NCBI GenBank assembly: GCA_024278345.1
Contig: JAJRTK010000155.1
Coordinates: 1-12,707, forward strand
Source of the DNA: a bacterium
GTDB lineage: Bacteria; CSSED10-310; JAJRTK01
Length of the DNA stretch: 12,707 nucleotides
Direction of reading: 5' to 3'
The notes below the pieces were generated by a model, which worked only from the letters and a program-made list of their open reading frames with translations, did no database searches and had not been told where the DNA came from. Shown here one piece after another: positions 4,184 to 10,628 of the stretch (within the stretch, counting starts at the first letter, position 1; each line of letters starts with the position of its first letter). Both the position numbers and the translations under genes were made by a program.

Positions 4184-4339
4184 ACGCGCCTCCTCCCGGC
4201 GACCCCTGATCTTCGCCCGTGACCCCAGAGGTATTCCGAACCGGCTTTATGGATTTTTTGTTTCCCCCTCTATTTCAAGCGCATGGAAGAGCGCTCGTCA
4301 AGCTCAACAGTGGGTCACTTCGCGGCCAAGACCACGTCC

Positions 4340-4444
4340 GGGCAACGCCGCGCTCCGCTCGGCGGGCAACGCCGCGCTCCGCTCGGCGGGCAACGCCGCG
4401 CTCCGCTCGGCGGGCAACGCCGCGCTCCGCTCGGCGGGCAACGC
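4340..4444. repeat. 24-bp tandem repeat, four perfect units plus a partial one
   Basis: Units at 4340-4363, 4364-4387, 4388-4411 and 4412-4435 are identical, and the first nine bases of a fifth follow (4436-4444). Each unit begins GGGCAACG and contains the imperfect hairpin GCCGCGC-TCC-GCTCGGC, whose loop TCC also appears in the hairpin at 4466-4484. There are no unique spacers, so it is not a CRISPR array. The period is a multiple of three and all frames stay open, but no surrounding gene is recognisable. Confidence 0.9.
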
Positions 4445-5632: not shown

Positions 5633-5706
<74 letters not shown>

Positions 5707-5721
5707 CTTTTGGTTCGTACT

Positions 5722-5797
5722 GGGGGTGTAGCTCAGCTGGAAGAGCACCTGCCTTGCACGCAGGGGGTCAGCGGTTCGAGTCCGCTCACCTCCACCA
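5722..5797 (+). tRNA. tRNA-Ala (TGC)
   Basis: Cloverleaf with acceptor stem GGGGGTG (5722-5728) and CACCTCC (5787-5793), one G-U pair, discriminator A 5794 and encoded CCA 5795-5797. The anticodon loop is CTTGCAC with anticodon TGC at 5755-5757, and the T-loop is TTCGAGT. It starts 15 bases after tRNA-Ile. This Ile-Ala order is the one normally found in 16S-23S rRNA spacers, but no rRNA sequence flanks it here. Confidence 0.97.
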
Positions 5798-5861: not shown

Positions 5862-7214
5862 TTATGCCCCATGACTCTCCGCGCCGCAAAACCTTTTCAC
5901 AAGGTCATAAAGGGTCTCAATCCCAAAACGGTAAGAGCTGATGGGGATTCGCTCGTCGTCGCCATGGAACATCTGGGCGAACTGGAGGCCTGGCGGTAGA
6001 TCCAGGGGATAGAATCCGTAGCAAACAGCCCCGAGCTGGGCGTATTTGCTGGAATCGGTGAAGCCCGAGACCAAATAGGGTACGGGGAGGCCACTTGGGT
6101 CATGCTCCAGGAGAACCTGTGTCATGGTTCGAAAAAGGTCGCTATCAGGTGAAAAGACCGTTGCTGGCGCCTCTTGGACGACCTCGATCTGGAATTCGGG
6201 TCCCAGGAGGGAGCGGACTTCGCGGGTGAGGTCCTGGGCAGTCTGACCGGGCAGGGTGCGGCCATCGACGCCGATCTCCGCCGACGACGGGACGACATTG
6301 ATTTTCGTGCCTGCCTGAACCAAGGTCGGATTGACGGTATTGCACAGGATCGCCTGGAGCGTTGCCCTTACCATCGGGTCGCCGATAAGGCGGTCGAGAA
6401 CGACACCGGCCAGTAGAGGAAACCTCAGAGCCGACAGAGCGGCCTTTTGGGGGAAATCGATCTCTGAAGAGACTGCTTTCAAGAAATCCAGGGCAGGAGA
6501 GGTCGGGTGAAACGGCAGGCGGCTCTGGGTCAGAATCTGGAGCGCTCGGCCAACGGATGCGAGGCAAGAATCGGGTTTGGGAAGGGAACCATGGCCTGGC
6601 TGGCCTCGGACGGTGATCCGGAGCCAGGCAATGCCCTTTTCCGCCACCTGGATAGGATAAAACTTCTTCCCCCCCATTTCCAGGGAAAACCCGCCCACTT
6701 CGTTAATGACATATTCGGCGTCGATGAGGCCTGGATGCTGCTCCACCAAAAAGGCAGAGCCAAACTCGCAACCGGCTTCCTCATCGGCGACGGCAGCCAG
6801 GATGAGATCCCGGTGAAGCAGAGCACCGGATCGCTTCAAGAGGCGGAGCACGGTGAGGCCCATGGCCGTCATTCCCTTCATATCGATGGCGCCCCGACCC
6901 CAAATGCAGCCGTCAGCACGGGCTCCGGAAAAGGGAGGATGGGTCCAGCGATTGGGATCGGCGGGGACAACATCCAGATGCGAGCTGAGCATGAGCGGCC
7001 GACGCTTCCCGGAACCTGGCAGGCGTGCCACGAGGCATGGCCGGCCTGGTGTTTTGGAGACCATTTGGTAATCGATGCCCTCTTTGTCGAGCTGAGCGGC
7101 CAGGTATTGGGCCGCGGGGAGCTCATTCCCCGGGGGATTGGTCGTATCGATCCGAAGCAGGTCTTGAAGGGTTGTGACAGCTTCCTGAAGCTGGTCGTCG
7201 CTCAATCGAAACAT
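5862..7214 (-). CDS. M20 family metallopeptidase
   Basis: The 450-residue product has the ArgE/DapE/carboxypeptidase G2-like motifs in order: 'SSHLDVVPAD' (77-86; His79 metal ligand, Asp81 catalytic), 'GRGAIDMKG' (106-114; Asp111 bridging ligand), 'ADEEAG' (143-148; Glu145 general base, Glu146 ligand), 'NEVGG' (171-175; Glu172 ligand) and 'FHGDDERIP' (416-424; His417 ligand). The dimerisation domain starts near 'GIAWLRITVRGQPGHGSLP' (194-212). It should be a two-zinc amide or peptide hydrolase in the cytoplasm, with no signal peptide. The substrate cannot be told, and no arginine or lysine biosynthesis gene is nearby. I chose ATG 7214, with GGGGA about six bases upstream; a TTG at 7316 is in frame but would add 34 unconserved residues and coincides with a possible -35 box. 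Divergent from the large gene at 7365. Confidence 0.9.
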   Translation of the reverse strand: MFRLSDDQLQEAVTTLQDLLRIDTTNPPGNELPAAQYLAAQLDKEGIDYQMVSKTPGRPCLVARLPGSGKRRPLMLSSHLDVVPADPNRWTHPPFSGARADGCIWGRGAIDMKGMTAMGLTVLRLLKRSGALLHRDLILAAVADEEAGCEFGSAFLVEQHPGLIDAEYVINEVGGFSLEMGGKKFYPIQVAEKGIAWLRITVRGQPGHGSLPKPDSCLASVGRALQILTQSRLPFHPTSPALDFLKAVSSEIDFPQKAALSALRFPLLAGVVLDRLIGDPMVRATLQAILCNTVNPTLVQAGTKINVVPSSAEIGVDGRTLPGQTAQDLTREVRSLLGPEFQIEVVQEAPATVFSPDSDLFRTMTQVLLEHDPSGLPVPYLVSGFTDSSKYAQLGAVCYGFYPLDLPPGLQFAQMFHGDDERIPISSYRFGIETLYDLVKRFCGAESHGA

Positions 7215-7288
7215 CAACAGTCCCCATTGGTGGATAGTTTTCTCAAAGCCGTGACCAAATTTCTCAGTGTAACGAATCCCGCCCACGG

Positions 7289-7316
7289 AGTGTAATCTGT
7301 AGCGTGGCAACTTCAA
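7289..7316 (-). promoter_or_regulatory. Possible promoter of the M20 peptidase gene
   Basis: On the minus strand TTGAAG (7311-7316) and TACACT (7289-7294) are separated by 16 bases, a fair sigma-70 match in the 150-base divergent gap. A transcript from here would begin near 7282 and have a leader of roughly 70 bases. No equally good signal is seen for the gene at 7365. Confidence 0.35.
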
Positions 7317-7364: not shown

Positions 7365-10300
7365 ATGAACGGGCGTTGGTTAATCTGGGTGTCGATGTGC
7401 GCGGCGGTTCCAGCCTTTTCCGTAAAGAATGGACAAACGGCTCCCGACCACGAAGCGAGCTTTAAGACGGGAAGGTGGCCGAGCTATCTTGGAGCACGCA
7501 ACGGCGGAAGCACCGGGGCAGTCGTGGGGTTGGAGGCTCGCTGGACAGATTTTGGGGCTGGAAAACGGAAAGCCAATGGCGGCAAGATGAACGAGCTTTC
7601 CAAAAAGCTTGCCTCCCTGGCACGTCCTTCCAGGGGGACGAGGGAAAAGCCTCTGGTCTTCTTAAGGCTCACGCCGGGAAACCTGGATGATTCTGGGCTG
7701 GCACAGACAGAAGAAATCATCAGCATTCGCTACAATCGGTGGTTCGCCTGGCTCCACGAGATGGTCATCCGGCTGGGACCTCAAGTGGACGTCTGGATTC
7801 TAGACCTGAAGCCAGCCAAGTTGGTAGCCCCCTTCGATCCAGCCTCGCCCTTCTATTCCCAGCTCTTGAAGAGCTCGGCGACGGAGCTTCGCGGCACGGA
7901 TCGCGGATGCAGGGTCCTTTGGAGGACGGATGTTCCGAAGCCTGTCGCTCCTTGGTGGCCCAGGGACGCCATCGCCTACTACGATGGACTGGAAGTGGCG
8001 GCGGACACCGACATTCAGGAGCTTCGAAACCTCCTTCCGCGGCGGGATTTCGAGCTTTGGCTCCGCCGGCGGAAAAAGCCTCCGGAACCCCTGCCGGAAA
8101 CTCTCATCAGCCTTCTTCTCTCTGGCCATGAAAAGGGGTCTCAAGTTTTGTTCTGGAAAGATGCGGGTTCCAGTACCGAACGGGTGACTCAGGCCTCCAG
8201 AGTGGCGCAGGCCATCGCCGCGGGTGATTGGACACCGGGTGAAACGGTTCTCGTGGAGGCACCTCCCGGCGTGAAATCCCATGTTTTGCTCGATTCGAAG
8301 AAGCGGGATGTCCGGATTGTGCTTCTCAATCCGCAAGGAGCTCTCAACCGTCTGGAAATAGGGGTTGGCAAACCTTCGGAGGCTCTCTACACCACCCCCC
8401 TGGGCGAAGCCACAGGAGAACTGGAAGTGGGGCGAAGCCGGGGAAACTTGGTGCTGACGGGCTTCCCGGCCGCCAAGCTGCTCGTCGTCGATCTGAAGGG
8501 AGCCCTGCCGCCTGGCTTCCAGGTCACCACAACAGCTTCCGCGGGAATGACGGGCCGCGAGATCATCGCCAGAACAGAGGCTTATTGGTTTTGGCTCCGC
8601 CGCACCCTGCCACAACTGGCGGCGCGAATCGAAATCGACTGGCAGCTCGGGGAGGCCGTGGGCTTCATGGTGACCGAAATGCTCTACGAGCCGGCCTCCA
8701 CCACTCTCTGGCTCGAAATCCTCGAAGAGCTGGAACAGGGCCTTCCCATCAATCCCAACAAGCGCCGGTACATGTTTTTCGAACGGGGCGGCGGAGTCTC
8801 GGTGCCTCTGGTCCAAGCGGTGGATGAGGACCACCGATACACGCGGCTTCCCGATGTCCGCCGAAACGGAAAGACCTTTCTGGCCGTTCGTTACACTCCG
8901 CGATCCGGGGTTGAAACTCGCACACGAGGCATGCTCCTCATCGATCCTGATAGCTACGCCGTCGCCTACATGGAAGATCGGGATCCCAAGCCTCCCTTCC
9001 CGTCCACAAGCCTCAGCACGGAGATGAGCTTCTCCGAAAAGCCCGGAGGTTTCTGGCTTCCCAACAAGAGCCGAGAGATCCGGCGAGTGGCCCTCCTTGG
9101 CCTGAGCTTCACCCTCCGTTCGAAGCTGCGGTTTTATGCCTACGACCTCGCGGTCAGGGATCTGGCGACCCGCGTTGAGAAGAGCTTGCGCTCGGCGAAT
9201 CCCGTCCTTGTCTGGAACGAGGCTCGCGACGAGTTCATGGTCTTGCGCAAAAAGAACCGGCCCCGGAAACCGAAGAAAAAAGGCCCCAAGCCAAAAAAAA
9301 GCCCGCGCACCAAGGAGGGAGTGCCGGCTCCGCATGAGAGGAGCAAAGAAGCCCCCCCAACGAGCACTCCTTATTGGAATCCGGAGGCCGCCGCTCCAAT
9401 CGATCAAGTCGAATCCCCTCCTGAAGGCCAGGAAAACGACTATTTGATGCGGATGGCCTTTGGCCAGTCCCTGGAATTGGAAGCCACGGCCACCGCGAAA
9501 AAAGTGGAGCAACTTCGGCCGGCCGACGCGGTTTCTCCCAGCTTGGGTCGAGCAGATAGCCTGAGATCGATGGCGCGGCGCCTGGGAAACGTCGAGCTCG
9601 TTCGCGGGGGCGACGCCAAACGAGTGGGAACCCTATTCGTGGGCGGCGGATACGCCAGTGGTGACTTCGCGCCCATCTTGCTGTACAGCCGCCTCTATCT
9701 GGAGTGGCTGGGGAAACGGGACTGGCAGTTCGTCATCTTCACCGCGGGAATCTTCAACCTTCTGCGTTGGACGGATACAAGCCTGTTCGGTTCCCGCTGG
9801 AACGGTTCGGTAACGACGCTCCTGCCCTTGCTCCCCTTTCCCGATGCACCAGAAGACCGCTTCGGGAAGGATGTTGACGAAGAAGAGATGTGGCGGTTCT
9901 TTCCGTCGCTGGAGTTTTCGGCCAGGCGAGCCCTCTGGGGACCTTTGAACATCGAGTTCGCCGCCGTGACCACCTGGCAGTTCTTCGGAGAGTCAGGCAA
10001 CACCGCGGACAACTTCATCGTGCCAAGCTCCCACCTGGAAACCCGCTTCCGCTCCCGGTTGGAGCTTTCGTTCGCCCGCTCCCGGGTGGCGGCCACGGCG
10101 GAACTCGGAACCCGAACTTCCTGGAACACCTGGGGATATGGAACTGAAAAACCATCGGCGGATTTCCAGCGCTACCGCATCGCGGCGGCTCACAGCTTTC
10201 GGCTGGGTCGCACAGGCATCCTGCAAATCGCCGGAGGTGGCGGAGGCGGCAATCACCTCGACCGCTTCACGGCCTTCGGCCCGGGCCAGTTCGACCTGGA

Positions 10301-10628
10301 CTCCATTGGGTCTCGATTCGTCCCCCCCACGAGCCCGCTCTATTTCAGCCGTTTCGGCTCTCTTGAAGGGAGCTTGGAGGCGACGGTCAAAAGGAAAATC
10401 CGCCTGGGCCTGGAAGCTGCCTACTTGGCGGGAAGCGACGAAGATCTCTTTTTGGCGGGAGTCAAGAACTTGGGTGAAAACCGAGGATTCGCCTCGGCGG
10501 GCGTGACCTTTCAGTTCAATTCGCCATGGAATACTCGGGCGCTTCTCCGCGTTGGAAACGCGTGGGAGCTTGGAGAAGAGGGTCCCTCGTCAGTTTACGC
10601 AACGCTCTCTCTGATCCGCCCCAGGTGA
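7365..10628 (+). CDS. Large secreted multidomain protein with C-terminal beta-barrel
   Basis: The 1087-residue product begins with a signal peptide (WLIWVSMCAAVPAFS, residues 5-19). Residues 95-235 alternate hydrophobic strands and helices ('VDVWILDLKP', 'RVLWRTDV', 'AIAYYDGLEV'), reminiscent of a TIM-barrel glycosidase, and 290-378 look like an all-beta cap; this is inference only. Residues 430-600 ('YTRLPDVRRNGKTFLAVRY', 'TRGMLLIDPDSYAVAYMEDRD', 'GGFWLPNKSREIRR') resemble LolA/outer-membrane lipoprotein-sorting-like beta domains. A basic Lys/Pro-rich linker spans 627-660. Residues 750-1087 have alternating amphipathic strands with aromatic girdles and end 'SSVYATLSLIRPR', suggesting an outer-membrane beta-barrel like the Bac_surface_Ag domain. 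The protein would thus sit in the outer membrane with its N-terminal domains in the periplasm or outside. ATG 7365 has AGGTG seven bases upstream. The frame is unbroken. The function is unknown. Confidence 0.85.
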   Translation: MNGRWLIWVSMCAAVPAFSVKNGQTAPDHEASFKTGRWPSYLGARNGGSTGAVVGLEARWTDFGAGKRKANGGKMNELSKKLASLARPSRGTREKPLVFLRLTPGNLDDSGLAQTEEIISIRYNRWFAWLHEMVIRLGPQVDVWILDLKPAKLVAPFDPASPFYSQLLKSSATELRGTDRGCRVLWRTDVPKPVAPWWPRDAIAYYDGLEVAADTDIQELRNLLPRRDFELWLRRRKKPPEPLPETLISLLLSGHEKGSQVLFWKDAGSSTERVTQASRVAQAIAAGDWTPGETVLVEAPPGVKSHVLLDSKKRDVRIVLLNPQGALNRLEIGVGKPSEALYTTPLGEATGELEVGRSRGNLVLTGFPAAKLLVVDLKGALPPGFQVTTTASAGMTGREIIARTEAYWFWLRRTLPQLAARIEIDWQLGEAVGFMVTEMLYEPASTTLWLEILEELEQGLPINPNKRRYMFFERGGGVSVPLVQAVDEDHRYTRLPDVRRNGKTFLAVRYTPRSGVETRTRGMLLIDPDSYAVAYMEDRDPKPPFPSTSLSTEMSFSEKPGGFWLPNKSREIRRVALLGLSFTLRSKLRFYAYDLAVRDLATRVEKSLRSANPVLVWNEARDEFMVLRKKNRPRKPKKKGPKPKKSPRTKEGVPAPHERSKEAPPTSTPYWNPEAAAPIDQVESPPEGQENDYLMRMAFGQSLELEATATAKKVEQLRPADAVSPSLGRADSLRSMARRLGNVELVRGGDAKRVGTLFVGGGYASGDFAPILLYSRLYLEWLGKRDWQFVIFTAGIFNLLRWTDTSLFGSRWNGSVTTLLPLLPFPDAPEDRFGKDVDEEEMWRFFPSLEFSARRALWGPLNIEFAAVTTWQFFGESGNTADNFIVPSSHLETRFRSRLELSFARSRVAATAELGTRTSWNTWGYGTEKPSADFQRYRIAAAHSFRLGRTGILQIAGGGGGGNHLDRFTAFGPGQFDLDSIGSRFVPPTSPLYFSRFGSLEGSLEATVKRKIRLGLEAAYLAGSDEDLFLAGVKNLGENRGFASAGVTFQFNSPWNTRALLRVGNAWELGEEGPSSVYATLSLIRPR

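Follow-up and report, generated by a model that had tools for sequence, protein, structure and literature searches.

The gene at positions 7365 to 10628 (plus strand) of contig JAJRTK010000155.1, a stretch of 12,707 nucleotides from a bacterium of the lineage CSSED10-310 (assembly GCA_024278345.1) that was analyzed as a whole and is called the window below, encodes a protein of 1,087 residues, here P0001. Predicted structures and the sequences of its relatives make it almost certain that P0001 joins a degenerate glycosidase-like domain (pseudo-GH39), a LolA-like domain, and an Omp85-type outer-membrane barrel. This is a new architecture assembled from known folds, shared by an unannotated family within which P0001 is divergent. 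Omp85 barrels are universal machines that place proteins in outer membranes, and LolA-type domains are common lipoprotein carriers; their combination suggests a one-piece device that puts fatty or glycosylated cargo into the outer membrane. Taken as a whole, the best explanation of the data, to which we give a little less than an even chance, is that the LolA-like domain and the barrel handle cargo and that the pseudo-GH39 domain acts as a glycan arm.

The reading frame of P0001 is real and intact. It starts with ATG, ends with a stop at position 10628, contains no internal stop, and is the longest open reading frame of the window, with GC contents at the three codon positions (0.62/0.50/0.69) similar to those of the neighboring genes. 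The whole chain was modeled using AlphaFold2 with the family alignment (mean predicted local distance difference test [pLDDT] of 71.8; predicted template modeling score [pTM] of 0.72), the N-terminus and a linker (residues 642 to 752) being the low-confidence parts, and a second AlphaFold model covered residues 1 to 625 (pLDDT of 76; pTM of 0.77). An earlier note, made from the sequence alone, had read the gene as one uninterrupted chain of several modules, and structure prediction and fold search recovered all three of them in the single frame. The ranges it gave (residues 90 to 380, 430 to 600, and 745 to 1087) are close to those of the models, except that the TIM barrel begins earlier, near residue 41.

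Searches with P0001 alone returned nothing significant in Pfam, NCBIfam, or the sequences of the PDB. P0001 had no match in plasmid records or in the contigs of named genomes, where a 12-sequence family alignment succeeded, and PHROGs gave no match to the family. A protein search in related genomes identified one homolog in the phylum of P0001 (in genome G003), and a profile built on these two sequences retrieved relatives in 44 of the 149 genomes of a second phylum. The scan of named genomes with the 12-sequence alignment showed that this phylum is Acidobacteriota, with members in Thermoanaerobaculia, Holophagae, Vicinamibacteraceae, Polarisedimenticola, and soil groups 7 and 22. Using a 55-sequence profile, we found a strong member in 53 of the 149 sampled Acidobacteriota genomes (E below 1e-39); the remaining weak matches were mostly short frames aligned over the LolA positions alone. 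Most of the family is encoded in single frames of roughly 950 to 1,150 amino acids. In unrelated genomes, the family profile retrieves Glyco_hydro_39 proteins with its N-terminal part and ordinary LolA_like proteins with its middle part, and its C-terminal end matches a protein with Omp85 (PF01103) and POTRA in an unrelated genome. When P0001 was left out of a profile of 12 relatives, it scored 130.7 bits in three collinear pieces (residues 80 to 426, 36.9 bits; 479 to 614, 2.2 bits; 782 to 1066, 83.9 bits), compared with 1.7 bits for the best of 200 shuffled sequences. These scores place P0001 in the Acidobacteriota family of pseudo-GH39, LolA, and barrel proteins, with the same domain order. 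Relative to typical members, its loop 6 motif is degenerate, its LolA motif is altered, and it carries an additional basic linker; its exact activity could therefore differ from theirs.

The modules are not equally conserved in the family. Mean pairwise identities are 26% for the TIM barrel and 28% for its cap, against 44% for the LolA domain and 41% for the outer-membrane barrel, and the columns conserved at 90% number 2, 1, 28, and 35, respectively. Moreover, a clade of 11 genomes (f280, with frames of 829 to 878 amino acids) matches the profile over LolA and barrel only; no GH39 module is recognizable in it, and both of the members that we inspected have a shorter N-terminus. Since LolA and barrel show much higher conservation than the GH39 part, and are all that this clade matches, the core activity probably lies in these two modules, and we read them as the core device to which the pseudo-GH39 module is an accessory.

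The barrel (residues 752 to 1087; positions 9618 to 10625, plus strand) is predicted to have 16 strands between residues 754 and 1086, with pLDDT values mostly from 75 to 95. In VIA alignments it matched BamA, FhaC, and TamA with Z scores of 19 to 22 over about 260 to 310 residues, and the best Foldseek match was TamA (4n74, 1.5e-7), followed by BamA, Sam50, and others. The models thus give P0001 a barrel with the fold of the Omp85 superfamily, which bears out the closed C-terminal transmembrane barrel anticipated in the earlier note and assigns it to the Omp85/Bac_surface_Ag type. Strands 11 and 12 are joined by a loop (residues 964 to 995; positions 10254 to 10349, plus strand) at the position of loop 6 in Omp85 proteins. 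Many relatives have VRGF, VRGY, VHGY, or IHGI in this loop, with a DRF motif just ahead in all of them; P0001 keeps LDRF near the start of the loop, followed by a degenerate version of the VRGF-type motif (GSRF). Neither Pfam nor the model revealed a POTRA domain in P0001, and PF01103 gave no match at E values up to 10.

A barrel of this kind could belong to an assembly factor for outer-membrane proteins (OMPs), similar to BamA or TamA, in which the LolA domain would replace POTRA and chaperone unfolded beta-strands, or take them from SurA-like chaperones, and the pseudo-GH39 domain would anchor the protein to peptidoglycan. The closest folds (BamA, TamA, FhaC, and Sam50) all point this way, and for Omp85 subfamilies not yet described, assembly or translocation is the conservative assumption (Heinz and Lithgow, PMC4104836). 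The LolA-fold protein RseB is also among the structural matches of P0001. RseB binds misfolded OMPs. Nevertheless, the lack of POTRA speaks against this role, as does the genome itself, which has a separate BamA candidate (a frame of 867 amino acids, C85), several other Omp85 frames, a LolA, and six LolA_like proteins, suggesting that P0001 is part of an accessory system. The patchy spread of the family, absent as a strong match from most of the sampled genomes, also argues against a housekeeping role. We consider an assembly factor unlikely, and continue to favor cargo handling by LolA and barrel.

The LolA-like domain (residues 391 to 615; positions 8535 to 9209, plus strand) consists in the model of a helix (397 to 414), strands between 418 and 594, and a second helix (600 to 609). 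Foldseek matched it to LolA3 of P. gingivalis (9tp6, 1.4e-6), 3bk5 (4.4e-6), 3buu (5.5e-6), the DUF1329 protein 4z48, and RseB, in agreement with the LolA-like domain proposed in the earlier note. LolA folds are absent from the VIA list because the TIM barrel fills it, and the assignment is based on Foldseek and on the relatives, 11 of 12 of which match LolA_like (PF17131; best E value, 9.9e-6) and 5 of 12 MucB_RseB. The matches to RseB and MucB_RseB also speak for a sensor of stress or of lipid homeostasis in the envelope, similar to PlpD or RseB. Its periplasmic modules would bind phospholipid, lipopolysaccharide (LPS), or glycan on the inner side of the outer membrane, either to tune lipid composition or to signal damage, with the barrel mainly as an anchor. 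The N-terminal domain of PlpD is periplasmic, and its loss raises the levels of many lipids (PMC11116518). One family paralog (L016:1837-5052, minus strand; 1,072 amino acids) has additional N-terminal residues before its TIM-like, LolA, and barrel parts; they read like an STN domain, with no match in Pfam. On the other hand, we recognized no enzymatic residues, and no anti-sigma factor or two-component partner is conserved beside the family genes. A sensor role for P0001 is, in our view, quite unlikely.

At the N-terminus, the pseudo-GH39 domain (residues 41 to 300; positions 7485 to 8264, plus strand) forms eight beta/alpha repeats (residues 41 to 285), identified by its fold and by the relative L065. 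Its strands beta1 to beta8 lie in the model at residues 41 to 45, 53 to 59, 97 to 102, 143 to 148, 183 to 187, 208 to 212, 230 to 235, and 261 to 265. The domain is followed by a beta-sandwich cap (residues 301 to 390; positions 8265 to 8534, plus strand) with seven strands between residues 304 and 378, which is covered jointly with the TIM barrel in matches to GH39, GH30, and GH79. The best structural neighbor was the GH39 protein 5jvk (VIA Z score of 17.9 over residues 44 to 378), with PslG (Z score of 16.5), GH30, and GH79 close behind; since other glycosidase families lie within 1.5 Z units of 5jvk, the assignment to GH39 also leans on L065, the most enzyme-like relative, whose sequence matches the GH39 xylosidase 4ekj (8.7e-6) and PslG (1.2e-4). 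Even in L065 the acid/base glutamate is replaced (YYEVWRTPN aligned to FFEVWNEPN), and none of the 55 aligned family members has it. In P0001, the end of beta4 reads WILDLKP (residues 144 to 150; positions 7794 to 7814, plus strand) where GH39 enzymes have WNEP with the acid/base glutamate, and the end of beta7, which holds the nucleophile column, reads ELWLRRRKKP (residues 230 to 239; positions 8052 to 8081, plus strand), with LRRR and no glutamate in that column. Some relatives retain a glutamate near the end of beta7, and so one catalytic residue may remain there, never the pair. Given the loss of the acid/base glutamate in all 55 members, the domain is very probably noncatalytic across the family, and we rejected an active glycosidase. 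Accordingly, the TIM barrel with a beta-cap described in the earlier note stands as a fold, while its sugar-hydrolase activity does not, and the acidic catalytic pair that it proposed to look for is missing.

The similarity to PslG, among the best matches in both fold and sequence, evokes a device for the export or processing of exopolysaccharides or other glycans, in which the GH39 domain would guide or trim a nascent polysaccharide and the barrel would be the exit pore. PslG is the GH39 protein of the Psl exopolysaccharide pathway. Such a function is difficult to reconcile with the missing acid/base glutamate, with the low conservation of the GH39 domain, the least conserved part of the protein, and with an Omp85-like barrel, whose lumen is normally closed. 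It also leaves the LolA domain unexplained, and we recognized no conserved polysaccharide-synthesis genes in the neighborhoods. We therefore regard this alternative as very unlikely, and keep the module as the glycan arm of a cargo-handling device.

The disposition of these modules in the envelope can be proposed by analogy. P0001 likely starts with a Sec signal peptide (residues 1 to ~25; positions 7365 to 7439, plus strand), modeled as a hydrophobic helix (4 to 17) followed by a low-confidence segment. A disordered linker with a Lys/Pro-rich start (residues 625 to 751; positions 9237 to 9617, plus strand; 13 K, 12 R, and 16 P; pLDDT of about 30 over residues 642 to 752) precedes the barrel and corresponds to the basic linker described in the earlier note. 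It is about 100 residues longer than in the relatives and largely special to P0001. A long, disordered, basic linker could serve a surface adhesin that moves its N-terminal modules out through its own barrel and displays a lectin-like, glycan-binding domain; for many years, patatin-type Omp85 proteins were believed to translocate themselves in this way (PMC4104836). Yet the linker is short in the relatives, and PlpD, the one fused case that was tested, keeps its domain in the periplasm (PMC11116518). We consider self-translocation most improbable. The topology of Omp85 proteins and the precedent of PlpD indicate that the N-terminal modules of P0001 should be periplasmic, which makes the surface processing suggested in the earlier note unlikely; a device for export or insertion would still be a reasonable proposal.

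In the mechanism that we favor, the protein would be exported by Sec and its barrel inserted in the outer membrane by BAM, so that the N-terminal modules reach into the periplasm. There the LolA-like domain, whose relatives are open beta half-barrels with a greasy cavity, would accept an acylated or otherwise lipidic cargo (lipoprotein, glycolipid, or phospholipid) and hand it over at the lateral seam of the barrel, which would perturb the bilayer and help the cargo to insert into the outer leaflet or to flip to it. The pseudo-GH39 domain would be a glycan-binding arm recognizing peptidoglycan or the sugar moiety of the cargo. The handling of lipids or lipoproteins by LolA and barrel is possible, and we hold it tentatively, on the doubtful side of even; the topology, the nature of the cargo, the direction of its transfer, and the partner are likewise inferred. 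The divergent position of the gene and the lack of a conserved operon partner in the family support a mechanism of this type, as do the shared LolA and Omp85 core of DUF5686 (below) and two precedents: PlpD, an Omp85 protein that combines a periplasmic N-terminal domain with a lipid phenotype (PMC11116518), and the Borrelia proteins BBJ28 and BBJ25, a LolA-like and an Omp85 protein proposed to act jointly (PMC13078400).

Several observations weigh against it. The mechanism is built on predicted folds and homology, and the periplasmic location of the N-terminal modules is itself drawn from Omp85 precedent. The LolA segment of P0001 is weak by sequence (2.2 bits), its assignment being based on structure and collinearity. 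P0001 lacks the conserved LolA motif of the family (FINGVRW..IPELPLIQPEK) and the VRGF/VHGY motif, and its function may consequently have drifted or been altered. Not all LolA folds carry cargo, since the LolA-fold domains of RseB and MucB sense misfolded proteins or LPS. Finally, no transporter or lipoprotein gene is conserved next to the family genes.

The family loci that we examined showed no conserved operon partner, and neither a transporter nor a lipoprotein gene was consistently adjacent. In some clades recA, DUF4388, RNase J, AsnRS, and UppP genes recur as neighbors (noted by eye, except for DUF4388); we rejected them as functional partners, the pattern being one of lineage synteny. 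In 12 of 54 loci (e.g., L073:3749-4879, minus strand), a DUF4388 gene is the divergent neighbor of the family gene, and in the genome of P0001 a DUF4388-like frame lies downstream of another Omp85 gene (L176). In two members (L120:1184-4151 and L135:4824-7839), the GH39-like part and the LolA part with the barrel lie in separate, overlapping frames; these were rejected as true two-gene versions and are probably frameshifts of draft assemblies. A CxxC motif occurs within the first 60 residues, just past the signal peptide, in 35 of 55 members (e.g., L014:8457-11345 and L013:8599-11703) and is absent from P0001. In G003, a frame 1.7 kb upstream of the family member (L003:380-6904, plus strand) encodes 2,174 amino acids comprising TamB (PF04357), POTRA repeats, and an Omp85 barrel, i.e., a TamB-TamA fusion.

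In the window, the gene of P0001 is divergent from an M20 peptidase gene (5862 to 7316, minus strand), and a sigma-54 regulator gene lies 447 bases downstream of it. The genes of tRNA-Ile(GAT) and tRNA-Ala(TGC), a pair that is usual in rRNA spacers, lie side by side (5633 to 5797, plus strand); we noticed no rRNA gene next to them in the window. Between PilZ and HEAT-repeat genes, a perfect tandem repeat of 24 bases (4339 to 4444; 4.4 copies) leaves several frames open.

Compared with known systems, P0001 shares with GH39 proteins (beta-xylosidases and PslG) the (beta/alpha)8 barrel and the beta cap; unlike them, its family lacks the acid/base glutamate, P0001 lacks that of the nucleophile column, and the domain is fused to LolA and barrel. 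With the LolA/LolB/RseB superfamily (PF17131, PF03548, and PF03888) it shares the helix and the antiparallel half-barrel, and its relatives match PF17131 and PF03888 weakly, but P0001 is itself below Pfam detection and is joined to an outer-membrane barrel. The 16-stranded fold and the presence of N-terminal modules ahead of it are common to BamA, TamA, FhaC, and PlpD, and the VRGF/VHGY-type motif of loop 6 is kept in many relatives of P0001, which differs from these proteins in having LolA-like and pseudo-GH39 modules where others carry POTRA. The Omp85 superfamily is defined by the barrel and includes groups without POTRA (Heinz and Lithgow, PMC4104836). The text of this 2014 survey names no LolA or glycosidase module in its ten subfamilies, and the architecture of P0001 falls outside them; the literature that we searched yielded no LolA-fused Omp85. 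In Borrelia, the Omp85 protein BBJ25 and the LolA-like BBJ28 were proposed to deliver nonpolar cargo to the outer membrane (PMC13078400). They are separate genes of a seven-gene cluster with an ABC transporter, whereas P0001 is one chain with no transporter neighbor.

The closest parallel is DUF5686 (PF18939), found in Bacteroidota and others, on which our literature search found no paper. As in the family of P0001, a LolA-like segment directly precedes an Omp85-type barrel without POTRA. P0001 does not match PF18939 at the curated cutoff, and the likeness of the LolA parts was detected by hhalign (E = 1.9e-6). The barrel region of DUF5686 overlaps PF01103 in three proteins (L151, L153, and L154), suggesting that DUF5686 is a POTRA-less family of LolA and Omp85 that is not labeled so. 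LolA and Omp85 in one chain, without POTRA and behind a dead glycosidase, in about one-third of the sampled Acidobacteriota genomes, together with the same core pair in DUF5686, suggest an unrecognized class of outer-membrane devices. In its most specific form, which we consider somewhat unlikely, the family would be a self-contained insertase or flippase that acts on lipidated cargo or on glycolipids, with a LolB-like acceptor, an Omp85 lateral gate, and a dead GH39 domain as glycan receptor, and DUF5686 would be its Bacteroidota counterpart. If true, the two would form a new functional class, the POTRA-less LolA-Omp85 proteins, and would open to test how lipidated or glycosylated material reaches or crosses the outer membrane in poorly studied diderm phyla. 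The two families differ in what precedes the shared pair, a carboxypeptidase-regulatory-like domain or nothing in DUF5686 and the pseudo-GH39 domain in the family of P0001.

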